Source: Polyangia bacterium
Lineage (GTDB): Bacteria > Myxococcota_A > Polyangia > Polyangiales > Sandaracinaceae
Reading direction: 5' to 3'
NCBI GenBank assembly: GCA_030426845.1
Contig: JAUHXR010000007.1
Location: 1-64,000 of the forward strand
Length of the DNA stretch: 64,000 nucleotides
In this document: positions 13,839 to 60,020 of the stretch, piece by piece
How the letters are laid out: every line of letters begins with the position of its first letter
Numbering within the stretch: position 1 is the stretch's first letter
Made by a program: the position numbers and the translations under genes
Notes under the pieces: generated by a model
What the model saw: only the letters and a program-made list of their open reading frames with translations
Told to the model about the DNA's origin: nothing
Databases searched by the model: none

Positions 13839-15835
13839 GGCGACGCGCGCTCACGGTGGCGGTGGCGCTGGTGGCCGTGGTCGCGCTCGGCGACGCGGCC
13901 CCGATCCGCGCGCAGGGCGAGATCGGCGCGCTGGCCCAGACGCCGGTCGAAGCCGAGGCGCTCCAGCTCCTCGGCGATGGCCTCTACGTGAGCGCGCGGA
14001 CCCAGGCGGAGGAGGCGCTCCGCGCCGACCCCGACTCGATCGTCGGCCACTACGTGCTGGGGCGCGCGTTCTTCGACGCCGAGGGCTCGCTCGCCCGCGC
14101 GATGTTCCACCTCGGCCGCGCGCGCGAGCTCTACGAGGGGCGGGCGCTCCCCTACGGCGAGCTGCACCAGGAGCTGCTCTACCAGACCGCGCGCCTCGCG
14201 GGGCAGATGGAGCTCTACGACTACCAGCTCGAGCTGCTCGGCTTCCACGACCACCTCTACGACCCGGACCTGATCGCCGAGCGGTGCTGGCCGCTCATGA
14301 AGCTCGACCGGATGGAGGAGGCGCGCGAGTTCGCCAACGCCGCGGTCGGCTCGCCCGACGCGTGGCAGCGCTCCGCCGGGCTCAACGCGCTCTGCGCGGT
14401 GGAGGGCGAGGCCCGGGCGCGCGGGCCCTACCGCGCGGCCTGCCTCCAGGCGCTCGAGAGCGCGCGCGCGGAGGTCGCGCGGCGCGGCGAGGACGAGGAG
14501 GCGGCGGGCATCGCGGTCGACGCGTACAACGCGGCGCTCGCCTCGGCGGCCGCGCTGCAGATCGACGAGGCGCGCGCGCTCGCGATGGAGGGCGTGCGCC
14601 GCTTCGAGCCGACGGGCGCCAACCCGTGGCAGCTCCTCGTCGAGCTCAACCTCAGCGACGGGCGGATGGACGACGCGCTCAACGCGTTCGCCCAGATGCT
14701 CCACTGGAACGATCGGCAGCCCGCGTCGATGCGCGATCAGGGGCGGGCGGAGCTCGAGGCGACGGTCGCGATGGTGCTGCTCCTCGCGGGCGAGACCGAG
14801 CAGGCGCGGGTGCGCATCGAGCGCGCGCTGGATCGGCCGGACCGGCGCGGCCTCACCACCGACGGCGCCGAGCAGGCGCGCGGGCGGCACGCGCTGCTGC
14901 GGCGGATCATCCGGCGCGTGCAGGCGGAGGAGGCGGCCGAGCAGGCCTCGTGGACGGGGCGCGGCGCGCAGCTCGTCGAGGCGGTGGTGTCGGCGCCCTC
15001 GGATCTGTTCGGGGGCTTCGCGGACGAGGAGCGGGTGGTCGCGGTCCTCACCGACGAGGGTCGACTGCAAGACACCGTGCGGCCGTACATGGCCGGCGGG
15101 GTAGACGGACTGAGCCCGTGGCTCACCCCGGAGCTGGTCGATCTGCTCGGCCCGGCGGTGATGCGGGTCGCGCTGCGCGACGCGCGCGAGCGTGACGCGG
15201 AGGTGCCGGCCGCGGCGCCGTTCTACCTCGGCCTCGAGGCGGAGATCGCGGCGCGGGACGGAGACGCGGACGAGGCGTTGCGCCTCGCGGAGCAGGCGCT
15301 CGAGGCGATGGACGCGCCGGGCTGGGCGCTCGCGCGGGCGCGGGTCGCGGCGGTGGCGGCGGAGGCCGCGCGGGACGACGGCCAGGACACGCGCGCCCAC
15401 GAGCTCTTCCAGATCGCGCTCGACTCGGACCCCGGGGTGCTGCGCCGGCTCGGGCTGGCCCTCCCCGCGTCGTTCACCGCGCAGGGCGACGCCGCGTCCG
15501 AGGCGGCGGACCTGCTCGCGCGCTCCCCTCGCTTCGACGAGGAGCGCGGCGCGTTCGTGGTCGCGGTCGAGCCGGCGCCGAACGGGCTGCGGGCGTGTCT
15601 CCGCAGCCCGTCGGGCAACGAGCTGCGCTGTGTGGTGGCGGAGCGGCCGGGAGAGGACGAGGAGGACCCCCTGCCGCTGCCCCAGCGGCTCGCCTACCAG
15701 GTGCACCACGAGCTGTTCGCCGCGCGCATCGAGCTGAGCACGATCGACCTCGGGTCGCTCGACGGCCACACCAACGGCGGCTCGGCCCTCGCGAACGAGA
15801 GGCTGCGCGATCTGATGGCCGAGCCGGACCGCTGA
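13835..15835 (+). CDS. Secreted TPR protein of the MoxR/transglutaminase operon
   Basis: 666 residues from a TTG start that overlaps the MoxR stop (TTGA). The N-terminus RRRALTVAVALVAVVALGDAAPIRAQ is a signal peptide with likely cleavage after RAQ. The remainder is helical with TPR-like repeats, for example LQLLGDGLYVSARTQAEEAL and HYVLGRAFFDAEGSLARAMF. The C-terminal part contains acidic helices and the segment LRACLRSPSGNELRCVVAE with two Cys. It probably acts in the periplasm as a protein-interaction scaffold, possibly for the transglutaminase partner; that is inferred from position only. The TTG start is chosen because no ATG or GTG precedes the signal sequence in frame. Confidence 0.8.
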   Translation: MRRRALTVAVALVAVVALGDAAPIRAQGEIGALAQTPVEAEALQLLGDGLYVSARTQAEEALRADPDSIVGHYVLGRAFFDAEGSLARAMFHLGRARELYEGRALPYGELHQELLYQTARLAGQMELYDYQLELLGFHDHLYDPDLIAERCWPLMKLDRMEEAREFANAAVGSPDAWQRSAGLNALCAVEGEARARGPYRAACLQALESARAEVARRGEDEEAAGIAVDAYNAALASAAALQIDEARALAMEGVRRFEPTGANPWQLLVELNLSDGRMDDALNAFAQMLHWNDRQPASMRDQGRAELEATVAMVLLLAGETEQARVRIERALDRPDRRGLTTDGAEQARGRHALLRRIIRRVQAEEAAEQASWTGRGAQLVEAVVSAPSDLFGGFADEERVVAVLTDEGRLQDTVRPYMAGGVDGLSPWLTPELVDLLGPAVMRVALRDARERDAEVPAAAPFYLGLEAEIAARDGDADEALRLAEQALEAMDAPGWALARARVAAVAAEAARDDGQDTRAHELFQIALDSDPGVLRRLGLALPASFTAQGDAASEAADLLARSPRFDEERGAFVVAVEPAPNGLRACLRSPSGNELRCVVAERPGEDEEDPLPLPQRLAYQVHHELFAARIELSTIDLGSLDGHTNGGSALANERLRDLMAEPDR

Positions 15836-22335: not shown

Positions 22336-24675
22336 TCACTGCGCCCAGAGGCGCAGGGTTAGGGCGAATGACCACTCTCCTTGCGTCACGCGGGCCTCGT
22401 CGGTCAGCGCGGCCCGCGCGCTGAGCGCAGCCTCGAACAGGCCCCAGCGGCCCTCGACGCCGCCGCCCACCGCGAGCGCCGCGCCGTCGCCCTCCGCGAA
22501 GCGGCCGATCGAGCCGTCCAGCTCCGCGCCGATCGCGAGCCACTCGAGCGGCACGAGGTCCACCCCCAGCGCCCACGCCCAGAGCCGCGCGCCGGTGTCG
22601 GTCGCGTCGACGATCGCGCCCTGACGGGTCCGCACCGCGAGCAGCGTGAACGGTCGCCACGACGCGGCGACCGACGGAGTGAGGCGCACCCGTCCCAGGC
22701 TGTCCGGTTCGCCGCGTGTCGGGATCCACGCCCCGAGGTCGACGGCCGCGCCCCACGCGCCCTCGTCGAGGAGCCGTAGGCCGAGCTCCCCGTAGAGGTC
22801 CGCGTCTCCGCGCCGGCCGACCGGCGCGGGCCGCGCGAGCGCGTCGAGCTGACCCGCGAACATCACCCGCAGGGGTACGCCCGGGAGCTGGGCCCGCGCA
22901 GCCACCCCCAGGCGGAGCTGCGGCTCGTCGCCCGGCGCCTCGGCGAGGATCCCGTAGATCCAGGCCCCGAACCCGCCGCGGCGCTCGTCGCGCAGGCCGA
23001 GCGCGCTCGGCCACAGCGCAGCCCCGAGCCCCTCGTGGACCGGCCCCGGCGTGGGCGCGTCGTCGGGCGCGGGCGCGTCGTCCGGCGGATGGCTCCCGTC
23101 GGGATCGCGCACCGGGACGACGAGCGACCCTAGCGGGACCAGCTCGCTCCCGGCGGCCACGCTGACCGTCAGCTCGGCTTGCGGTGGCGCATCCGGGCTC
23201 GCCCAGACGTCGACGACCAGGTCGGGACCGGAGACGCGCGGGCGCTCCACCTGGAAGCCGGCCGGCGCGCTGACGCGGAGCACGCTCGCGGGGGGGACGC
23301 GCGGCGCGGCGAGGTCGATCCGCAGCTCGGTGCGCCGGTCGCGCACGAGCGCCCCGAGGTCGGCCCGCACCGCAACCTCGATCACCTCGACCGGAAGCCG
23401 GGTCTCTGCGCCGCGGCGGTCCTGGCAGCGCACCTCGTGGCGGCCGCGGCCGCGCAAGGTGACGATGCCGCTCATCGGTCCGTCGCCGTCCGCGCAGTCG
23501 AGCCCGCGCGGGGCGACGAGCCAGGTGCCGGGCCACACCCGCGGCGCCACCCCGTCGGGCTCAGCCGCCGCGCCGCCTGGCTCGACGAGGCGCGCGAGGC
23601 GCACGGTGAACGCGCGCCAGGGTGAGCGCCGCCCCTCGAGACCGTGGCGGTCGATCGACGCGATCGAGACGTAGACCGTGCCCTCGGGCAGCCCGCTCGC
23701 CTCGAACGCGCTCGCCCGGCCGCCGAGCTCCAGCGTGGTGAGGAGCTCCGCGCCGTCGGGCTCGCTCGAGACCTCGACGCGGTAGCGGTCCGCGCCGCGC
23801 ACCGCGTCGAAGCCGCCGCGCAGGGTCGCGCCTCGGCCGACGAACCCGATGACCGGCCCGCTCGACTCCGCGCGCCAGCGCGGCGCGGCGAGGAGCCGGC
23901 GCGGCTGCGCGGGCTGCTCGCCGCGGCGGACCACCGTCCCCGTCCCGGCCGGCAGCGTGATCGTGCGTCCGCCCGCCTCGACCGTGGCCGCGCGCCGCCC
24001 GTGGTTCGCGACGCGGCTCGTACCGTCCTCGCCGACGCTCACCACCGCGTCGCCGTCGAGGCTCGCGCGCGAGCTCGGCGTCTCGACCTCGAGGGGGCGG
24101 CGGCCCGCGAGCTCGCCGAGCCGACTCCGCAGCGCGCCGCTCTCCAGCTCGGCCCGGGTGACAGGGCGCGACGCGAGGCGGCGCTGGCCGCCGTAGATGA
24201 TCACCAGCGTCCGCTGGCGAACCTGGACGAGCGACCGGTCCTCGAACGCGATCTCCGCGCTCGCCGCGTCGTGGGTGCGCACCTGCGTGCCGCGCGGGAG
24301 CGCCTGCCCGGCCCGCGCGTCCGCGAAGGTCGCCGCGTCGGGGGTCCTCCGATCCACGCGCCGCTGGACGCTCACGATCCGGGCCGGCGGCGACGGGCGC
24401 GGCAGCCGCAGCACCGTGCCGGGGGCCAGGCGGTGAGGCATGGGCCCGAGCTCGGGGTTGTGCGCGTGGATCTGCGGGTAGGCGTCCGCGTCGCCCAGCA
24501 CGCGGGCCGCGATCGCGCGGCACGAGTCGCCCGGCCGCACGGTGTAGTCGAAGAGCTCCTGGGCCCGGGCCGGGCTGGCGAGCGTGAGGCTGGCGAGCGC
24601 GAGGCTGACGAGCGCCGGGCTGACGAGCGCGAGGTCGGCTCCGAGCCCGCGCCGCCGCGGCCTGGCGCCGATCAT
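22336..24675 (-). CDS. LysM-FecR protein with a putative C-terminal outer-membrane beta-barrel
   Basis: 779 residues; the ATG at 24675 overlaps the kinase stop (ATGA). A signal peptide ends near ASPARAQ (39). LysM is at about 44-93 (YTVRPGDSCRAIAARVLG) and should bind peptidoglycan. A FecR domain follows at about 115-265 (GTQVRTHDAASAEIAFEDRS, RVANHGRRAATVEAGG), then Ig/FnIII-like segments (about 290-540). From about 545 to the end come alternating hydrophobic/polar strands rich in Trp, Leu and Gly (YGELGLRLLDEGAWGAAVDL), ending LRLWAQ, which looks like an outer-membrane barrel. FecR normally belongs to membrane anti-sigma regulators; here it is on the outside with LysM. The barrel call is inferred and needs structure prediction. 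Confidence 0.8.
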   Translation of the reverse strand: MIGARPRRRGLGADLALVSPALVSLALASLTLASPARAQELFDYTVRPGDSCRAIAARVLGDADAYPQIHAHNPELGPMPHRLAPGTVLRLPRPSPPARIVSVQRRVDRRTPDAATFADARAGQALPRGTQVRTHDAASAEIAFEDRSLVQVRQRTLVIIYGGQRRLASRPVTRAELESGALRSRLGELAGRRPLEVETPSSRASLDGDAVVSVGEDGTSRVANHGRRAATVEAGGRTITLPAGTGTVVRRGEQPAQPRRLLAAPRWRAESSGPVIGFVGRGATLRGGFDAVRGADRYRVEVSSEPDGAELLTTLELGGRASAFEASGLPEGTVYVSIASIDRHGLEGRRSPWRAFTVRLARLVEPGGAAAEPDGVAPRVWPGTWLVAPRGLDCADGDGPMSGIVTLRGRGRHEVRCQDRRGAETRLPVEVIEVAVRADLGALVRDRRTELRIDLAAPRVPPASVLRVSAPAGFQVERPRVSGPDLVVDVWASPDAPPQAELTVSVAAGSELVPLGSLVVPVRDPDGSHPPDDAPAPDDAPTPGPVHEGLGAALWPSALGLRDERRGGFGAWIYGILAEAPGDEPQLRLGVAARAQLPGVPLRVMFAGQLDALARPAPVGRRGDADLYGELGLRLLDEGAWGAAVDLGAWIPTRGEPDSLGRVRLTPSVAASWRPFTLLAVRTRQGAIVDATDTGARLWAWALGVDLVPLEWLAIGAELDGSIGRFAEGDGAALAVGGGVEGRWGLFEAALSARAALTDEARVTQGEWSFALTLRLWAQ

Positions 24676-25937
24676 CGCCGGCGCGCCCGCCCCACCCGGC
24701 GGAGCTTGCGCGCGAGGTCGGCCGCGTCGACCGGCCGCAGGACGACGTCGGCCGCCCCGGCGCGGAGCAGAGCGGACAGGGCGGCCACGTCCCCTCGGTC
24801 CGCGGCCGCGACGACCGGGCGCCCCTCGGCCGCGAGCGCGCGCACCGCGTCGGGATCGGCGCCCGGCGCGTAGAGCGCGGCGGTGGCGTCGTCGGCCGGC
24901 TCGTCGTCGCGGACCGCGAAGGCGAGGATGCCGTTCGCGCGCAGCCCGAGGAGGAGCGCGGCGTCCACCGCGCCGACCACGCCGACCTCGAGCTCCTCGG
25001 CCGACGCCGTCGCGCCCGCCGCCGCGTCGACCATCCGGCGCGCGCGGGGCCCGAGGTAGCCGTCGGCCGCGGCGCGGGCCCGGCCGCGGTCCGGGTCCGG
25101 GTCCATCGCCGCGAGGCGGGCCGCGACCTCCTCCATCGTCGGCCGCTCCCCCGCCGCCTTGGCGAGCATCCGGCGGCGCAGCGCGTCGAGCGCGGTCGGG
25201 ACGCTCAGAGGCTCGCCCTCGCGCGCGAGCGGCGGAGGCGGCGCGAACATCTGCTTGGTCAAGACGTCCGCCTCCGGGCCGGAGAAGGGCGCTCGGCCCG
25301 TCAGGAGCTCGTGCAGCATGCACCCGAGCGCGTAGACGTCGGTCGGCGGCCCGACGTCCTGGCCGCGAGCCTGCTCGGGCGAGAGGTACTCGGGCGTCCC
25401 CACGACCACCCCCTCGCGCGTCATCCGGCCGGCCCCCTCGTCGCCCCCCTCGCCCGCGAGGAACGCGAGGCCGAAGTCGAGGACCCGCAGCCGCTCGTCG
25501 ATGGAGAAGAGCACGTTGTCGGGCTTGAGATCGCGATGCGTCAGGCCGCTCGCGTGGGCGGCGGCCACCGCGGCCGCCAGCTCCTGAGTCCAGGCGATCG
25601 CGCGGCCCGCGTCGAGGCCCGTGGGGCGAGCGGCGAGGCGCGCGCGGAGCGTCTCGCCCTCGATCAGCTCCATCACGAGGAACGCCGCGCCCTCGTGCTC
25701 GCCGTAGTCGTGGACCGCGACGGCGGCGGGGTGGCGGAAGCGGCTGGCGACCTTCGCCTCGCGCGCGAAGCGGAGGCGGGCCCGCGGCTCGTCGACCAGC
25801 TCGCGGCGCAGCACCTTCACCGCCACCGGGCGGCCGAGGGGGAGCTGCGAAGCGCGGTAGACGACTCCCATTCCCCCGCGCCCGAGCACCGCCTCGACGC
25901 GGTAGCGGCCTGCGAGCAGGGTGCCCGGCGCGATCAC
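24672..25937 (-). CDS. Ser/Thr protein kinase with a C-terminal receiver-like domain
   Basis: 421 residues from a GTG overlapping the cyclase stop (GTGA). The kinase domain (about 11-270) has GRGGMGVVY, Lys41, HRDLKPDN with Asp136 and LDFG with Asp154, so it should be active. No transmembrane helix is seen. Residues ~310-421 look like the later half of a response-regulator receiver domain: ILAFAVRDDEP, ALYAPGADPDAVRAL, GRPVVAAADRGDVAAL, RAGAADVVLRPVDAADL. The acidic phosphorylation pocket is not evident, so it is probably a pseudo-receiver. Position between a cyclase and a FecR protein makes it the cytoplasmic centre of this operon. Confidence 0.9.
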   Translation of the reverse strand: MIAPGTLLAGRYRVEAVLGRGGMGVVYRASQLPLGRPVAVKVLRRELVDEPRARLRFAREAKVASRFRHPAAVAVHDYGEHEGAAFLVMELIEGETLRARLAARPTGLDAGRAIAWTQELAAAVAAAHASGLTHRDLKPDNVLFSIDERLRVLDFGLAFLAGEGGDEGAGRMTREGVVVGTPEYLSPEQARGQDVGPPTDVYALGCMLHELLTGRAPFSGPEADVLTKQMFAPPPPLAREGEPLSVPTALDALRRRMLAKAAGERPTMEEVAARLAAMDPDPDRGRARAAADGYLGPRARRMVDAAAGATASAEELEVGVVGAVDAALLLGLRANGILAFAVRDDEPADDATAALYAPGADPDAVRALAAEGRPVVAAADRGDVAALSALLRAGAADVVLRPVDAADLARKLRRVGRARRR

Positions 25938-27661
25938 CAGTCGACCTCGTAGAGCGCGACCGGCGCGGCGCGGCCCGGCACCTCGCGCTCGCCGACCGCG
26001 CGCGCGTCGAAGTCCTCCCCCGCCGCCTCCACGGTGGCGTGGCTCACGAGGATCTGCGACGGCCGCGCGATCGTCTCGAGGCGCGCGGCCACGTTCACGA
26101 CGTCGCCGATCGCGGTGTACTCCATGCGCGTCTCGGAGCCGACGTTGCCGACCACCGCCTCGCCGCTGTTGACGCCGATCGCGAGCTGGACCTCGACCCC
26201 GTAGCGGTCGCGCCAGCCCGCGTTGGCGCTCTCGAGGAAGCGGAGCATGTCCTGCGAAGCGTAGAGCGCGCGGGCCGCGTGATCCTCCTGCGCGGCCGGC
26301 GCGCCGAACAGCGCCATCACGCAGTCGCCGAGGAACTTGTCGACCGTGCCGCCGTGCCGGAACACCGCCTCGGTGAGCAGGGTGAACAGCTCGTTGAGGA
26401 TCGCGACGACCTGCTCGGGCGGGAGCCGCTCCGAGAGCGGGGTGAACGCGACGACGTCGGCGAAGAGGACGGTGATCTCGCGGCGCTGCCCGCCGAGCTC
26501 CATGCTCTGCTCGCGGCGGACGATCTTCTCCACCAGCTCGCCCGGGAGGTAGCGGCGCAGGTCGCCGCGGATCGCGGCCTCCTCGACGAGCCGCGCCTCC
26601 GACGCCTCGAGCTGCGCGGCCGCGCCGCTGAGCGCCTCGCCGAGCACCGCCAGCTCGTCGCGCGTCCGGACCTCGACGCGCCGGTCGAACCGCCGCGCGG
26701 CGAGGTCCTCGGTGAACGCGACCAGCTCGCCGATCGGGGCCGCGATCCGTCGCGCGAACACGAAGGCCGCGACGAGCGCGAGCAGGACCGTCAGCGCGAT
26801 CGACGCGATCACGATGCGCTGCATCTGCGCGAGCGACGCGTAGGCGACGTCGGTCGGGATCATCGCGACGACCGCCCACGGCAGCTCCGAGAGCCCGACC
26901 GCGGTGCTCAGCCAGCGTCGCCCCGCCGCGTCCTCTCGCTCCGCGCTCGCGGGGGCCTGGGCGAGCGCCTCGACGTCCGCGTCGGGCGGCATCGCGACCG
27001 GCGCGACCGGAGCGAGCACCGCCGCGGGGTCCGGGTGAACGAGCGCGCGTCGGTCCGCGTCCAGCACGAGGAGCACGCCCTCACGCGAGGCGAGCTGCGC
27101 GCGCGAGAGGCGCTCGAGGCTGCGCTGGGTGTCGGCGAGCGACCAGGGCGACGCCGCGTAGCCGGTCACCCGCCCGCCGGCGCGGACCGGCACGACGAGG
27201 AGCACGCGGGCGGAGTCGCCGTCGCGGGTGATCGGCCCGATCGCGCGCCCGCCGTCCGCGGCGGCGCGGAGCGCGGCGTCGAGCCGGTCGGGCGTCTCGG
27301 GCGCGGCGATCCGCGGGTCGCGCAGCCGATCGATCAGCGCGCCCGACGCGCCGTAGACCGCGACCACGTCGAGGCCTGGCTGCGCGTCGAGGAGGCGCAG
27401 GCTCGTGCCGACCCGCACGTCCTCGGGCGCGCCCTCGTCCGCGAGGGCCTCGGCCACCACCGCGAGCGCGCGTCCGCGCCCCGCGACCTCCTCGTCGAGC
27501 CGCGTCGCGACCTGCTCGACCAGCGCGATCTGGAGCGCCTGGCTCGACGACTCGACCTCGCGCGCGTTGACGTCGATCAGCAGCCAGCCGAGCACCACGA
27601 GCGGTACGGCGGACAGCGTCGCGGTGAGCAGCGCGATCTTGAGCCGGAGCGGGAAGCGCAT
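25934..27661 (-). CDS. Membrane class III adenylyl/guanylyl cyclase with extracellular sensor
   Basis: 575 residues from the ATG at 27661. Transmembrane helices at about 8-29 and 283-306 enclose an external dCache-like sensor domain of about 250 residues. A HAMP linker (ARRIAAPIGELVAFTEDLAA) follows and then the catalytic domain (about 390-575). Metal-binding Asp residues are in VLFADVVAFT and KFLGDCVMALFG. Lys in DKFLGD and Asp in YTAIGDVVNVAARLE fit ATP as substrate, so cAMP is the probable product. The N and R of NVAARLE, needed for catalysis, are present. It would report an outside signal as a second messenger, next to a kinase in the same operon. Confidence 0.92.
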   Translation of the reverse strand: MRFPLRLKIALLTATLSAVPLVVLGWLLIDVNAREVESSSQALQIALVEQVATRLDEEVAGRGRALAVVAEALADEGAPEDVRVGTSLRLLDAQPGLDVVAVYGASGALIDRLRDPRIAAPETPDRLDAALRAAADGGRAIGPITRDGDSARVLLVVPVRAGGRVTGYAASPWSLADTQRSLERLSRAQLASREGVLLVLDADRRALVHPDPAAVLAPVAPVAMPPDADVEALAQAPASAEREDAAGRRWLSTAVGLSELPWAVVAMIPTDVAYASLAQMQRIVIASIALTVLLALVAAFVFARRIAAPIGELVAFTEDLAARRFDRRVEVRTRDELAVLGEALSGAAAQLEASEARLVEEAAIRGDLRRYLPGELVEKIVRREQSMELGGQRREITVLFADVVAFTPLSERLPPEQVVAILNELFTLLTEAVFRHGGTVDKFLGDCVMALFGAPAAQEDHAARALYASQDMLRFLESANAGWRDRYGVEVQLAIGVNSGEAVVGNVGSETRMEYTAIGDVVNVAARLETIARPSQILVSHATVEAAGEDFDARAVGEREVPGRAAPVALYEVDW

Positions 27662-27684
27662 CGGTCCGGTCGGCGCGCTCCGGC

Positions 27685-28101
27685 TCAGACCATGAAGCCC
27701 ATCGCGGCCCAGTCGATCGTCAGGCGCGTCGGGTTCTGGGGGTCGCACTTCACGGGCACGCTCATGCCGGGCCCCACCCGCGACATCGCCATCATCGGCA
27801 CCACGCACTGGTGGTTGGTGCGGAAGGGCGCGAAGGCGGCCTGCCCCGGCAGCGGCTGCACGTCGAGCACGATCGAGAGCTGGGGCTGGTGGTTGATGAG
27901 CACCCCCGTCTGGCCCACCTGCACGATGCTCGCCTGGGCTGCGACCCCGGTCGCCACGAGCTGTTGCCGCTCCTGGTTCTTCTTGAACAGGAAGTAGAAG
28001 ACCGCGCCCACGATGCCGATCGGGACGATCGCGGCCATGCAGCTGATGAGCGTGACGAAGATCGTCACGCCTCCTGCGAAGAGCTCCGGATCACTCTGCA
28101 C
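27685..28101 (-). CDS. Small membrane protein, first gene of the cyclase/kinase/FecR operon
   Basis: 138 residues from a GTG. A hydrophobic N-terminal half (about 10-40: VTIFVTLISCMAAIVPIGIV then GAVFYFLFKKN) forms one long or two short membrane helices. The C-terminal 95 residues are soluble and beta-rich (AAQASIVQVGQTGVLINHQP, LSIVLDVQPLPGQ, VPVKCDPQNPTRLTI), resembling DUF3592-like domains. The next gene starts 24 bases downstream. The start is weakly supported by a G-rich element only. Function unknown. Confidence 0.7.
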   Translation of the reverse strand: MQSDPELFAGGVTIFVTLISCMAAIVPIGIVGAVFYFLFKKNQERQQLVATGVAAQASIVQVGQTGVLINHQPQLSIVLDVQPLPGQAAFAPFRTNHQCVVPMMAMSRVGPGMSVPVKCDPQNPTRLTIDWAAMGFMV

Positions 28102-28138
28102 GCGTTACCCCCCGGGTTCCGAGCCGCCGCGCCGATCC

Positions 28139-28174
28139 TCGCACATCCGGCCGAACCGCGCGCGGGATGTGCGA
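28139..28174. promoter_or_regulatory. Perfect 10-bp inverted repeat in the divergent signalling promoter
   Basis: TCGCACATCC (28139-28148) and GGATGTGCGA (28165-28174) form a perfect dyad with 16 bases between. It lies in the 85-base gap between the cyclase/kinase operon (start 28101, minus) and the FHA-sigma54 activator (start 28187, plus). The placement fits an operator shared by both promoters. It is close to the activator start, so it could also be a leader hairpin. Confidence 0.6.
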
Positions 28175-28186
28175 TGATCGCGACCC

Positions 28187-29488
<1,302 letters not shown>

Positions 29489-54717: not shown

Positions 54718-54824
54718 GGGGAACACCGGGCGCGCGATGGGGTCGAAACGGTGCGTGCCCCCTGCGCGCGAGCGCGAGCGACGTGGAGCAGAGAGTGACC
54801 CGAGGTGCTATTCTGGTGGGCGAG

Positions 54825-55973
54825 ATGGAGCCGGTCGAGATGGAGCCGGTCGAGGCGGCGTTCCGGCTGCTGCCCTCGGAGCGTGTGCTCTGGGAGGGCG
54901 GGCCCCGCCGCGGTGCCCCCCGCGCCCAGGGCTGGCGCCTCGTCCCCGCGATCCTCGTCACGCTCTCGGCGATCGTCGGCCTCTTCGCCGGCCTCCTCCA
55001 CCTCGTGGAGCTTCCGGGCAGCTCGCAGGTCGCGCTGATCGGCGTCTACCTGCTGGCCTTCGCGATCGCCATCTGGGTCGCTCCGTCGCTGCTCTTCGAT
55101 CCCTGCCGCTACGTCGTGACCGACCGCCGCGTGCTCTGGAAGCGCGGCAAGATCCGTCGCTCGATCGATCGCCACGCGCTGACCTACGCGCGCATCAAGT
55201 GGTCGGCCGCGCCCAACCTGGGCGACCTCGAGCTGGTGCGCGCGGTCCCGTTCGGGCCGCTCGCGCGCAAGCAGCGCCTCGTGCTCCACGCGGTGGAGGC
55301 GCCGGACCGGGTCCTCGCGCTGATCCGTGACGCCGCGCCGAGCGAGCACGCGGGCGACCGCCTCACCCCGCTGATCGACCGGCTCGACCCGGACGAGGTC
55401 GTCCTCTGGGGCGGCGCGCCCGAGGGCACGGGCATCGACTGGCGCCACGTCCTGACGACCCTCCTCGGCGTTGGTGTGCTCCTGGTGGGCCTCCCGAGCG
55501 GCGTCCGGCCCGCGGTGCTCCTCGCCCACCTCGAGGAGCTCGGCCTGCCGATGACGTCGGGCACCTGGCTGATGCTGTTCACGGCGATGGCCCTCACCGC
55601 CACCCTGATCCTGGCCGTCGGCGTCTGGCTGGCGTGGCACGGCATCGTGCGCGCCCGCGGCCTCGGCCAGGACACCGAGTACCTGCTCACCGATCGCCGG
55701 CTCCTCATCCGTCGCGGGCTCACCGAGCTGTCGCTCGATCGGGGGCGCATCGTCGACGTGGCCGAGACGCGCGGCTGGTGGGGCCTGACCCACATGTACC
55801 TCGTGCTCGACGGCCCCGACGCCCGCGCCCTCGCGGACAGCGGCGCCCTGGGCGTGATCACCCCGTCGCGCGACTCGGTCCCCCCGATCCTCTACGAGCT
55901 GCGTGACCCGGCCGCGTTCAAGAGCCTCCTGCTCGGGCGCCCCTCGCGGCCCAGCGTCCCCCACGCGGCCTGA
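54825..55973 (+). CDS. Membrane protein with two PH domains
   Basis: 382 residues from the ATG at 54825; a second ATG at 54840 and a GTG at 54783 are alternatives. Two similar halves are present. Each has a pair of transmembrane helices (about 40-65 and 70-95; 210-230 and 245-275), followed by a PH-like signature: YVVTDRRVLWKRGKIRRSID and YLLTDRRLLIRRGLTELSLD. This duplicated bPH layout is found in YdbS/YdbT-type proteins of unknown function. A partial PH protein also lies at the start of the window (1-306). No partner gene is evident. Confidence 0.85.
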   Translation: MEPVEMEPVEAAFRLLPSERVLWEGGPRRGAPRAQGWRLVPAILVTLSAIVGLFAGLLHLVELPGSSQVALIGVYLLAFAIAIWVAPSLLFDPCRYVVTDRRVLWKRGKIRRSIDRHALTYARIKWSAAPNLGDLELVRAVPFGPLARKQRLVLHAVEAPDRVLALIRDAAPSEHAGDRLTPLIDRLDPDEVVLWGGAPEGTGIDWRHVLTTLLGVGVLLVGLPSGVRPAVLLAHLEELGLPMTSGTWLMLFTAMALTATLILAVGVWLAWHGIVRARGLGQDTEYLLTDRRLLIRRGLTELSLDRGRIVDVAETRGWWGLTHMYLVLDGPDARALADSGALGVITPSRDSVPPILYELRDPAAFKSLLLGRPSRPSVPHAA

Positions 55974-56083: not shown

Positions 56084-56728
56084 ATGAAGCGGATCGTCTT
56101 CACTTTGCTGGCCGCGAGCCTTCTGGTCCTTGTTGGTGGATGTCGCGCGCGGGTCCGGGTCCGCGCTCCGCGGCCGAGCGTGACCGTTCAGGCGCGCGCG
56201 CCGCAGCCGCCGCCGCCGGGGGCGACCGTGTCCGTGACCACCGGCGGCGCCGGCGTCACCGTGGTCGACAACTACTGCAACGCGGGTCAGCCCGAGGTGT
56301 GCAACGGCCTCGACGACAACTGCAACGGCGTCATCGACGAGGGCTGCGGCTTCAGCAGCGGCAACATCCAGATCACGCTCGCCTGGGCCACCGGCGCGGA
56401 CCTCGACCTCTACGTGATCGACCCCTCCGGGTTCGAGATCAGCTACCAGAACCGCCAGTCGCCGACCGGCGGCCACCTCGATCACGACGCCCGCGGCGCG
56501 TGCAACCGCCGCCAGGAGGGCAACACGATCGAGAACGTCTACTGGGACGCGCAGAACCCGCCCGGCGGCCAGTACCGGGTCGAGGTCCACTACTGGGGCG
56601 AGTGCGGCGTCGCGGGGACCACCCAGGCGACCCTCAGCATCGCGGTCGGCGGGCAGATCATCGGCGCCTACAACGTCGTGCTCAACCCGCGCGACCGTCA
56701 GGCCGTCGCGATCTTCAACATGCCCTGA
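56084..56728 (+). CDS. Lipoprotein with MopE metal motif and DUF2135-like domain
   Basis: 214 residues with AGGGAGA before the ATG. The signal ends in lipobox LVGGC (Cys20). An Arg/Pro-rich linker is followed by CNAGQPEVCNGLDDNCNG then VIDEGC, the MopE-type metal-binding motif, found in copper-related surface proteins. The C-terminal domain (about 95-214) reads IQITLAWATGADLDLYVIDP and YWDAQNPPGGQYRVEVHYWG, matching DUF2135-like beta-sandwich proteins. Together it is a surface lipoprotein with a metal site next to a beta-sandwich. It follows the PH protein gene but probably has its own promoter. Confidence 0.85.
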   Translation: MKRIVFTLLAASLLVLVGGCRARVRVRAPRPSVTVQARAPQPPPPGATVSVTTGGAGVTVVDNYCNAGQPEVCNGLDDNCNGVIDEGCGFSSGNIQITLAWATGADLDLYVIDPSGFEISYQNRQSPTGGHLDHDARGACNRRQEGNTIENVYWDAQNPPGGQYRVEVHYWGECGVAGTTQATLSIAVGGQIIGAYNVVLNPRDRQAVAIFNMP

Positions 56729-56864: not shown

Positions 56865-59800
56865 ATGCTCGTTTGCCCCCTCTGTCGGCTCTGCCTCGCC
56901 GACGACGAAACCACCTGCCCCCGCGACGGCCAGGCCGGCGTCGAGGGCGGGGGGGCGAGCATCCCGGCCGAGCTCGCCGATCGCTTCCATCTCGTGCAGC
57001 CCTACGCCGAGGGGCCCAACGGCGAGCTGTACCTGGTCGATGACCAGCAGACGGGGCGGCGCGGCCTCCTGAAGGTGCTGCGGCTTCCGTCCGGCGCGAC
57101 GCCGGCCGAGCGCTCGCGGCTCAAGCGCGAGATCCTCAAGCAGGCCTCGATCACCCACGACGTCCTCGCCGTCCCCCTCGCGACGGGAGACGCGGGCGAG
57201 CGGCCCTGGGTGTTCCGGGAGCTCCGCGAGGGCGTGTCGCTCCGGGTGCGGCTCACCCGCGGGGGCGCGCTGCCGGTGCCCGAGGCGATCGCGATCACCG
57301 AGCAGATCGCCTCTGCGCTCGACGCGCTCCACCGGAGCGGCCTGCTGCACCGCGACCTCAAGCCGGGTCACGTGATCCTCGAGCCGCGTCCGTCCGGCGT
57401 GCCGCGGGTCGGCGTGATCGACGCGGGGGTCGCCGCCAAGCTCGACACCGAGACGAGCTTCGACGTGGTGGGCACGGCCGCCTACGTCGCGCCGGAGCAG
57501 GCTCAGGGCAAGCTCGTCAGCTTCCGCAGCGACCTCTACGCGCTCGGCTGCGTGCTCTACGAGATGCTCACCGGCGGGCCGCCGTTCGAGGGCACCGTCG
57601 CGGAGCTGCTGGAGGCCCACGCCAGCGCGAGCCCCCCGACCCCCGGGGTGGAGCTACCGGCCGGGGTCGCCAAGCTGCTCGGCCAGCTCCTGGCCAAGGC
57701 CCCGCGGGAGCGGCCCTTCTCGGCCCAGCAGGTGCGCCGCGCGCTCAAGCCGTTCCTCCCCGAGGACGCGAGCAGCAAGCGCGAGTCGACCCAGACCTTC
57801 GACAAGATGAACGAGCGGCGGCGCGCCCCGCTGCCGGGGATCGGCACGCTCCGGCCCGCGCCGAGCGCGCCGTCGTCGCGCAGCGTCCCGCCGCCGCCGC
57901 CGCCCGGCGCCCGCAAGAAGCCGAGCCTCCCGCCTCCTCCGCCGCCGGGCCGTGCTCCGGCCGCCGCCGACGACGAGCCGGAGGACATGACCCAGGAGCT
58001 CACGCCCCTCGACCTGACGCAGGCCGAGGAGCTGCTCGCGGCCTCTCGCAAGCCGCGGGTCGCCAAGACGATGCTGGGGATGCCGGCCGCCGCGCCCCCG
58101 GGCGCCGGCGGGGACGAGTCCGCCAGCAAGGCCTCCGCCGAGGCCCCGGACGACGCCTCGCCCGAGGGCACCCAGGAGCTCACCCCGATGGACCTCGCCC
58201 AGGCCGAGGAGGTCCTCCAGCGGCAGCGCGCGGCCGGCCCCTCGTCGCCTCCGCCGCCTCCCGGCTCGGTGCCGCCATCGGCGCCCGTGTCCTCTCCGCC
58301 GCCCGCGTCCTCTCCGCCGCCCGCGTCCTCTCCGCCGCCCGCGTCTTCGCCTCCGGGCGCGTCGCCGAGCGCGGTGGTCATGGCGGCCGCGGGTCCCGTG
58401 TCCACCACCGGCCCGACCCTCGCGCAGCCGCTCACCGCGCCCGTGGGCGCCGCGCCTCTGCCCGGGTTGGGGGCGCCCGCCGGGCCGACCGGCCCGAGCG
58501 CGGTGAGCCCGGCGTCGCCGACGGTCGGGATGCCCCCCGCCGGGCCGACCTCGACCGCGCCGGGCTTCCCGTCCGCGCCGCCGCCGAGCGCGCCTCCGCC
58601 GGGGCCGACGTCGACCGCGCCGGGGTTCGCGTCTGCGCCGTCGGCCCAGACGCCGAGCGCTCCGCCGGGGCCGACGTCGACCGCGCCGGGGTTCGCGTCT
58701 GTGCCCGCGCCGGGGTTCGCGTCTGTGCCCGCGTCGGCCGACGTGTCGCCGGCCGCCTTCGCCCCGACCGCGGCGGGGGTCGATCCGGCGCCCGGGCCGT
58801 CCGCCGTCGCGATGGGCGGGGGCCCGGTCTCGCCGCACAGCCCGTCGACGGCGCGGCCGTTCGATCCACCCGCCACCACGCAGGGCGACGGGACGGCGGG
58901 CGCCCCCGCGTCGGGGACGCCGCCGTTCGAGGTCGCCGACGGGGAGACCGGCACCTTCGACCCGCCGCGCCCCGCCGACTCCGGGATGCTCGAGGCGGCG
59001 GCCCTCGGGACGAACCCCGCGTGGGACGTCGGCGGCCTCGACTACGACGACCTGGCCGAGACCCACGCCTACGACCCCACGGCCCGGGCCGAGGACGCCG
59101 GCCCGACGGACGCGCCGGCCGACGAGGTCGCGAAGGACGCGTTCCCCGCCGCGGGGGCCTCCGTCCCCGCCGCGCCCGTCCCTGCGAAGCCGGCGTCGAG
59201 CGGGCTCCCCGGCGGCAAGCTCCTGCCGATCCTCGCGGCGGCCGGCCTGGTCGGCTTCTGCGGGCTCAGCGCGGTGATCACGGGCGCGGTCTGGCTGTTC
59301 TCGAGCGACGACGACCCCGCGCCGATCGCCCAGGCGCCCGTCGAGCCGACCCAGGTGGCCCCGGCCCCGGTCGTCGCGCCCGCGCCCACCCCCGTGGCCG
59401 CACCCGTCGCTGCGCCTGCGCCCGCGCCTTCCGAGCCCGCTCCGGCCGAGCCCGCGCCGGCTGAGCCCGCGCCGGCCGAGCCCGCGCCGGCCGAGCCCGC
59501 GGCGATCGCGGAAGAGCCGGTCGCGCCCGAGCCGGTCGCGGCGGTCGAGCCGACGCCGAGTGAGCCGCCCGCCGAGCCCGCACGGGCTCGCGCAGAGCCG
59601 CGTCCAGAGCCGCGCTCACGTCGCGGCCGCTCGACGCCGCGCGCGGCCGCCCCGGCCCCCGCCGGGCCCAACCGCCTCCAGCAGTTCCAGCAGGCGCGCG
59701 AGGAGGCCCTCACCCACTTCCGGGCGCGCCGCTTCGGCCAGGCGGCGGCGGCCTACGAGCGCGCGACCCGGCTCAACCCACGCCACGCCGGGAGCTTCGC

Positions 59801-60020
59801 GGGCCTCGGCGCGAGCCGGCTCGCCGAGGGACGCCCGCGCGAGGCGGTCGCGGCCTACCAGCGCGCGAGCCAGCTCCAGCCCGACCACGCCGGCTTCCAC
59901 GCTGCGCTCGGACGGGCCTACCAGGCGGCGGGAAACGCCCGCGCCGCCCGGCTGGAGTATCAGCGCGCGCTGCAGCTCGACCCGACCAACCGCGCGGCCC
60001 GGCAGGGGCTGGGGCGCTAG
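56865..60020 (+). CDS. Atypical Ser/Thr kinase-TPR membrane protein
   Basis: 1051 residues. A short zinc ribbon (Cys4, Cys7, Cys10, Cys18) precedes a kinase-like domain (about 40-305). It keeps Lys70 (LLKVLRL) and Asp164 of HRDLKP. The metal-binding Asn is replaced by His169 (HRDLKPGH), DFG is DAG (Asp186-Ala-Gly) and the glycine loop is AEGPNGE. Activity is therefore doubtful. A long Pro/Ala linker follows with TQELTPLDLTQAEELL at 376-391 and its near copy from 436, and KTMLG at 401-405. One transmembrane helix lies at about 785-812. Ala/Pro/Glu repeats and TPRs (about 935-1051) are outside. It probably acts as a scaffold or weak kinase. Confidence 0.88.
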   Translation: MLVCPLCRLCLADDETTCPRDGQAGVEGGGASIPAELADRFHLVQPYAEGPNGELYLVDDQQTGRRGLLKVLRLPSGATPAERSRLKREILKQASITHDVLAVPLATGDAGERPWVFRELREGVSLRVRLTRGGALPVPEAIAITEQIASALDALHRSGLLHRDLKPGHVILEPRPSGVPRVGVIDAGVAAKLDTETSFDVVGTAAYVAPEQAQGKLVSFRSDLYALGCVLYEMLTGGPPFEGTVAELLEAHASASPPTPGVELPAGVAKLLGQLLAKAPRERPFSAQQVRRALKPFLPEDASSKRESTQTFDKMNERRRAPLPGIGTLRPAPSAPSSRSVPPPPPPGARKKPSLPPPPPPGRAPAAADDEPEDMTQELTPLDLTQAEELLAASRKPRVAKTMLGMPAAAPPGAGGDESASKASAEAPDDASPEGTQELTPMDLAQAEEVLQRQRAAGPSSPPPPPGSVPPSAPVSSPPPASSPPPASSPPPASSPPGASPSAVVMAAAGPVSTTGPTLAQPLTAPVGAAPLPGLGAPAGPTGPSAVSPASPTVGMPPAGPTSTAPGFPSAPPPSAPPPGPTSTAPGFASAPSAQTPSAPPGPTSTAPGFASVPAPGFASVPASADVSPAAFAPTAAGVDPAPGPSAVAMGGGPVSPHSPSTARPFDPPATTQGDGTAGAPASGTPPFEVADGETGTFDPPRPADSGMLEAAALGTNPAWDVGGLDYDDLAETHAYDPTARAEDAGPTDAPADEVAKDAFPAAGASVPAAPVPAKPASSGLPGGKLLPILAAAGLVGFCGLSAVITGAVWLFSSDDDPAPIAQAPVEPTQVAPAPVVAPAPTPVAAPVAAPAPAPSEPAPAEPAPAEPAPAEPAPAEPAAIAEEPVAPEPVAAVEPTPSEPPAEPARARAEPRPEPRSRRGRSTPRAAAPAPAGPNRLQQFQQAREEALTHFRARRFGQAAAAYERATRLNPRHAGSFAGLGASRLAEGRPREAVAAYQRASQLQPDHAGFHAALGRAYQAAGNARAARLEYQRALQLDPTNRAARQGLGR
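58288..58350 (+). repeat. 18-bp tandem repeats encoding PPPASS
   Basis: TCTCCGCCGCCCGCGTCC occurs three times head to tail with further partial copies, in frame in the proline-rich linker of the atypical kinase. Related runs lie at 58610-58740 (PGFASVPA-type) and 59430-59500 (AEPAP). Confidence 0.9.

Follow-up and report, generated by a model that had tools for sequence, protein, structure and literature searches.

The order of a kinase part, a transmembrane (TM) helix and an extracytoplasmic part is known from the bacterial Hanks-type kinases PknA and PknB, and the loss of the catalytic-loop Asn in such enzymes is commonly taken as the mark of a dead kinase. The same order is found in a kinase-like protein of a Polyangia bacterium (Sandaracinaceae, assembly GCA_030426845.1), whose gene lies on contig JAUHXR010000007.1 within positions 1 to 64,000 of the forward strand; this whole 64,000-nucleotide stretch is called the window, and the protein the window protein. 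It shares the kinase fold with PknA and PknB and differs from PknB, which keeps HRDVKPAN and DFG in the alignment, in its altered active site and in possessing TPR repeats instead of PASTA repeats (Table 1).

Several other described systems are relevant. In Pseudomonas aeruginosa the essential lipopolysaccharide (LPS) heptose kinase WaaP coordinates the second Mg2+ by His168, in the place of Asn171 of PKA; the H168A variant supported no growth, and DFG is DLH (PMC6147952). The E. coli K-12 WaaP sequence reads HRDCYICH and IDLH. The WaaP/Kdo LPS kinases thus resemble the window protein in the His for the catalytic-loop Asn, the atypical DFG and the retained Lys, Glu and Asp (PMC6147952), but WaaP is a sugar kinase, and assignment of the window protein to the Kdo/WaaP family was rejected (PF06293, 18.5 bits, below the cut-off of 21.3). 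In mycobacteria the phosphorylated pseudokinase domain of the membrane protein MviN (MurJ) is proposed to be bound by the forkhead-associated (FHA) protein FhaA (PMC11898655). Both MviN and the window protein are membrane proteins with a kinase-like domain, and MviN as a proposed phosphorylated platform for an FHA reader may serve as a functional precedent; MviN, however, acts as a flippase and has 15 predicted TM helices, and the likeness was compared at the level of the kinase fold. YukC/EssB (PMC9600267) and Myxococcus EcpK (PMC12004946) are likewise kinase-derived and proposed to be membrane scaffolds, with the differences that YukC does not bind ATP (PMC9600267) and that EcpK derives from Walker-motif tyrosine kinases (PMC12004946). 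In the open-licence literature no description of the present kinase-like family was found, no paper combining a His-substituted catalytic loop with a pseudokinase, none combining Sandaracinus with kinase and FHA, and none on point, judged by title, for a myxobacterial zinc-ribbon kinase with TPR.

The window protein is interpreted here as a receptor-like, trans-envelope, kinase-derived signalling hub with a Thr-motif linker, whose job common to the family is non-catalytic while ATP binding is probably kept in the window species; belief and doubt in this interpretation are about evenly balanced. The zinc ribbon and the modelled kinase fold would form the cytoplasmic side, and a single membrane helix would lead to the periplasmic TPR part, which may meet the lipoprotein encoded upstream. 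The constant function would be to present the kinase-fold surface and the Thr-centred linker motifs, which could be phosphorylated in cis or by others of the genome's many kinases, could be contacted by partners, or both, the (D/E)xT(Q/E)xL motif being the best candidate for FHA readers; His169 may be a metal ligand, by analogy with WaaP.

Active Site of the Window Protein

The kinase-like domain scored 100.5 bits with the Hanks-type Ser/Thr kinase profile PF00069 (curated cut-off 31.7), the AlphaFold2 model of residues 1–317, built with 30 sequences in the alignment, reached a mean predicted local distance difference test score (pLDDT) of 92.7, and the nearest solved fold in Foldseek was PknA (4x3f, 31% identity, E 1.1e-19). 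Within this fold both hallmarks of a canonical active Hanks-type kinase, the catalytic-loop Asn and the DFG Phe, are lost to His169 and to DAG, and the glycine loop reads A48-E-G50-P-N-G53, where the profile alignment to PknB sets Ala48 against the first Gly and shows the second kept as G50. The ATP-binding Lys (K70), helix-C Glu (E89), HRD Asp (D164), K166 and DFG Asp (D186) are all present. The original prediction had named the three replacements as well as the retention of Lys70 and Asp164, and each of these was found again in the sequence. Since Lys70, Glu89, Asp164, Lys166, Asp186 and His169 stand together, the window protein probably still binds Mg-ATP, if WaaP is a valid guide. The further claim that His marks a lost metal site found no support: His169 is no proof of a dead kinase, because the WaaP His binds Mg2+ and is needed, and the family and order comparisons below, in which His169 goes with Lys70 and the His kinases of the order mostly keep DFG, also speak against it.

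Family Members and Variation of Catalytic Residues

Relatives were collected from three sources, namely 38 whole genomes (25 matches at E 1e-40, five low-scoring ones, G037:C12, G032:C82, G002:C86, G013:C5 and G016:C279, being left unused), scanned genome contigs (32 loci, with L109–L114 from other phyla omitted) and 183 genomes of the order. Removal of duplicates (13 of 46 loci) left the 33 members used for motif and neighbour counts, and two more were added for the residue counts, giving 35 distinct members (41 of 76 loci removed). A search of the phylum (282 genomes, a match in 141 at E 1e-50) was not used for the family count because below about 210 bits the matches merge with other kinases. 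The named members come from metagenome-assembled Sandaracinaceae, Myxococcales and other Myxococcota, and in a quick tree one branch separates all 35 from 28 other kinases with a Shimodaira–Hasegawa-like approximate likelihood-ratio test (SH-aLRT) support of 100.

At position 169 the 35 members have His (30) or Arg (5) and never Asn; position 187 is Ala, Thr or Ser and in no member Phe; Asp164 is invariant, and Glu89 is present in 33 of 34 readable members. Lys70 is kept in every readable His169 member (29 of 29) and in none of the five Arg169 members, which have Arg or Val there and three of which have also lost Asp186. Thus His169 and Lys70 look like one functional set. In L103/L104, with Val70, Arg169 and Glu186, the site can hardly support the usual Mg-ATP binding, judging by its residues; for most family members retained ATP binding is the simplest reading. 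In a careful tree from which these columns were left out residues 169 and 70 each change three times, and all three independent pairs agree. Through the paired His/Lys loss one gene lineage offers a natural gradation between seemingly intact and dead sites, by which a protein kinase running on a His metal ligand becomes a testable question.

The five Arg169 members keep one or more of the linker motifs (5/5) and, where enough sequence is available, the upstream lipoprotein gene (4/4), so the function shared by the family is most simply non-catalytic. The scaffold suggested by the original prediction therefore gains support from this comparison, and not from the His on which it had leaned.

A different explanation, regarded as rather doubtful, is that the protein is an active protein kinase whose His169 serves, like the His of WaaP, as the second Mg ligand, and which phosphorylates its own linker and/or partners, some lineages having died later. 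It draws on the WaaP precedent (His168 for Asn, no growth of H168A, DLH; PMC6147952), on the complete set of Lys, Glu, both Asp, loop Lys and His in the window protein, and on the other HRDxKPxH groups of the order with their DFG. Against it, Lys stands at position 166 in 18 of the 35 members and gives way to another residue in 17 (Arg 11, Ser/Thr/Gln 6), the HRD His is replaced by Met, Gln, Phe or Cys in 10, Asp186 is kept in 30 and lost in 5, and WaaP is a sugar kinase and only distant kin by the profile score given above. The loop Lys and the HRD His are lost in L035, L036, L042 and L043, which belong to the family group of the window protein itself.

The differences in catalytic residues between lineages, together with the large kinome, could also suggest neutral decay of a redundant kinase copy without special function. 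Such decay is already disfavoured and is considered highly improbable, as 37 of the 183 genomes of the order carry one high-scoring copy each (at least 285 bits, the next match dropping to 227 bits), invariant residues persist over 18 aligned members, and motifs and gene order are conserved.

His for Asn in the Genome and in the Order

The frequency of the replacement was followed with DNA patterns, which for HRDxKPxH also admit Ser for Arg and miss His members whose loop is not HRD-x-KP. The genome of the window species holds HRDxKPxH 2 times and HRDxKPxN 155 times; a count over 96 genomes of the order gave 77 and 7202, respectively, and the kinase-like family supplies 13 of the 77 (at least one of the 77, L191, reads HSD; it is included in that total and stands outside the frame reading). 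Frames were readable at 30 of 31 loci (L082 and 30 fetched ones), and DFG was found in 26 of these 30, in three of them (L195, L196 and L203) by eye as LLDFG. Twelve HRDxKPxH kinases placed on the tree fell on several branches, all outside the kinase-like family. These frames and branches indicate that the change from Asn to His occurs in the order beside otherwise ordinary catalytic motifs. It is put forward tentatively, with the weight of opinion against the proposal as a whole, that Hanks-type kinases of the order swapped the near-universal Mg-binding Asn for His more than once to give working "His-loop" kinases, and that the family would be one of these, in which the active site was dropped in at least three lineages while the Thr-motif hub and the periplasmic arm were kept.

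The other HRDxKPxH case of the same genome (L082, C472:9001-9024, minus strand) belongs to another kinase, in which the glycine loop is complete and DFG reads DWG. Together with L187, L193–L198, L201 and L203–L216 it makes up a separate kinase group with HRD[IV]KPEH and DFG (DWG in L082), which is present in many genomes of the order and combines His in place of Asn with an active site that is ordinary in other respects.

Thr Motifs of the Linker

Four motifs (A, C, D and E) stand out of an otherwise variable linker. Motif A (R-E-x-T-x-x-F) was found in 7 of the 33 members, with a shuffled-linker mean of 0.04; motif C in its loose form (T-Q/E-x-L-x-x-hydrophobic-D/E) in 18 (mean 0.09, maximum 1); motif D (T-M/L-L-G-M-P type) in 20 (mean 0.15, maximum 3); and motif E in 12 when the pattern was looser and in 11 when it was stricter (mean 0.01). 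The far lower means of the shuffled linkers show that the motifs are not due to chance composition, although the patterns were composed after the members had been viewed and the shuffles do not give a blind discovery rate. In the window protein the TQELTP repeats, said by the original prediction to lie exactly 60 residues apart, do start at 376 and 436 with 13 of 16 residues identical, and in 2000 shuffles of the 84-residue repeat region the best 16-mer self-match never exceeded 9; its KTMLG was likewise located in the linker. The 60-residue spacing was rejected as a functional ruler, being confined to the window species (26, 33, 22 and 29 in other members with two or three copies). Motif C was also rejected as a genome-wide repeat, as in the same genome the kinase-like gene alone matched below E 0.1, and so was the idea that the KTMLG type tags proteins throughout the proteome (T-x-x-GMPA at 2 places of the genome; a wider pattern 4 times against 2 in the reversed control). 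A conserved G-x-LRPP piece, found in 6 of the 33 members and absent from the window protein, stands outside the argument.

When the Thr position was left open, Thr was found at all sites of motifs A (7/7), C (25/25) and E (11/11) and at 19 of 20 sites of motif D, where the one deviating site is a hydrophobic segment in L037. Asp or Glu occupies position −2 in 24 of 26 motif C sites. At position +3 from the putative phosphothreonine (pThr) motif C has Leu and motif A Phe, both hydrophobic, and motif D has Gly, these letters belonging to the search patterns themselves. Asp at pThr+3 also suits FHA recognition. In M. tuberculosis, PknA-dependent sites are enriched in Leu/Val at +3 and in acidic residues at −1 and −3 to −6 (PMC7164672), and in DgcB-type FHA ligands the hydrophobic +3 residue makes the crucial contact, Glu at −2 is a shared feature, and Ser at +1 is followed by a hydrophobic +2 residue (PMC6733907). 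Motif C agrees with the former in its +3 Leu and with the latter in acidic −2 and hydrophobic +3, so (D/E)xT(Q/E)xL partly fits the FHA rules, and TQEL and RE-x-T-x-x-F would fit FHA recognition better than KTMLG. The suggestion that KTMLG is read by FHA proteins stands as to the breadth of the motif and its nearly constant Thr and fails as to its +3 Gly.

A constitutive trans-envelope scaffold, in which the linker motifs would act simply as docking helices or as tethers and would not be phosphosites, is thought unlikely. The stretch that follows the motif C Thr (LxxLDLxxAExxL) looks amphipathic by eye and also conserved, and motifs D and E misfit FHA while motif C fits in part, all of which would suit docking helices; the Thr as sole residue at the open position of motifs A, C and E, and the likeness of the +3 Leu and acidic −2 of motif C to known FHA ligands, argue against them.

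The signalling hub thus preferred has to be weighed against several observations that tell against it. Loose motif C is missing from 15 of the 33 members, of which L090 at least is truncated inside the linker. Gly at +3 in 21 of 21 motif D sites, 12 of which have Lys at −2, and Arg/Asn at +3 in 7 of 11 motif E sites make both motifs poor candidates for typical FHA ligands; in motif C the acidic −2 does not match the PknA-dependent sites, and Gln/Glu stand where DgcB-type ligands carry the +1 Ser and the hydrophobic +2 residue. The sign test on the co-loss of His169 and Lys70 cannot be significant (p 0.25), as there are three events only, and both conserved upstream neighbours are missing in 11 of the 31 members with at least 1.5 kb of upstream sequence (three of these with only 1.5–2.6 kb).

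In the 9.4 Mb genome of the window species 62 FHA matches reached E 1e-8 or better and the kinase matches number at least 151, and the short Thr motifs give a defined set with which reader proteins may be sought there. The FHA matches and the HRDxKPxN sites make up a very large Ser/Thr signalling set. A zinc-ribbon protein of the same genome (L115, C276, about 15159–15445, minus strand) has one apparent TM helix and three motifs of the TMLG[MQ]P type that resemble motif D, and a kinase gene (C276:12520-13299) lies about 2 kb from it on the same strand.

Domain Layout and Neighbouring Genes

The features are collected in Table 1.

Table 1: Features of the kinase-like gene and its upstream neighbours (window positions).
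Feature	Position	Strand	Detail
Kinase-like gene	56865..60020	+	1051 aa; zinc ribbon, kinase-like domain, Pro-rich Thr-motif linker, TM helix, TPR
N-terminal zinc-ribbon-like C4-x2-C7-x10-C18-x2-D21	56865..56936	+	sequence; putative metal binding
Kinase-like domain, aa 40-297	56982..57755	+	Pfam; AlphaFold2; Foldseek
Lys70, ATP-binding Lys	57072..57074	+	kept in 29/34 readable members
Catalytic loop HRDLKPGH, last residue His169 replacing Asn	57348..57371	+	sequence
DAG (D186-A187-G188) replacing DFG	57420..57428	+	sequence
Motif A RESTQTF (Thr309)	57780..57800	+	7/33 members
Motif C copy 1 TQELTPLDLTQAEELL (Thr376)	57990..58037	+	sequence
Motif D KTMLGMP, KTMLG = aa 401-405 (Thr402)	58065..58085	+	type in 20/33 members
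Motif C copy 2 TQELTPMDLAQAEEVL (Thr436)	58170..58217	+	sequence
Motif E LDYDDLAET (Thr733)	59037..59063	+	sequence
Single TM helix, about aa 786-810	59220..59294	+	hydropathy peak
Three TPR repeats, aa 941-1049, predicted periplasmic	59685..60011	+	Pfam match
Upstream lipoprotein, lipobox LVGGC (by eye), MopE-type motif, beta-sandwich model, conserved neighbour	56084..56728	+	
bPH-like protein, second conserved upstream neighbour	54783..55973	+	Pfam match below cut-off

The zinc-ribbon-like pattern recurs in close members, and TPR was present in 9 of 10 relatives scanned; the frame of L104 stops early and lacks it. MviN is not known to have a TPR or a zinc ribbon. The charges flanking the TM helix, read by eye, suggest that the kinase part lies inside and the TPR part outside. 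Assignment to the PASTA kinases was rejected, since the NF033483 score of 167.7 bits is below the cut-off of 450, the match is confined to residues 35–311 and Pfam gave no PASTA match. One close member (L034:3066-5585) has, by eye, an apparent PEGA-like insert between TM and TPR.

Among the 31 members with sufficient upstream sequence the lipoprotein gene was found in 15, the bPH gene in 13 and either in 20; downstream, rplU was found in 11 of the 33. The lipobox suggests the lipoprotein as a possible partner for the TPR part, which is predicted to be periplasmic. In the alignment of its relatives conserved Cys, Asp and Gly form a CNGLDDNCNGxIDEGCG-type motif, and Pfam gave a MopE match just above the cut-off and DUF2135/PPC matches below it. 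Its beta-sandwich model (pLDDT 84.7) had no Foldseek match at E 0.001 or better; VIA-align gave TerD (3ibz) with Z 9.9 over 121 aligned residues (3.7 Å, 14% identity), a suggestive likeness for a predicted structure. The model also resembles subtilase C-terminal domains. Elsewhere in the window, positions 24672–29488 bring together, as read by eye, an FHA sigma-54-type activator, a cyclase-type protein and a kinase with the canonical HRDLKPDN and DFG.

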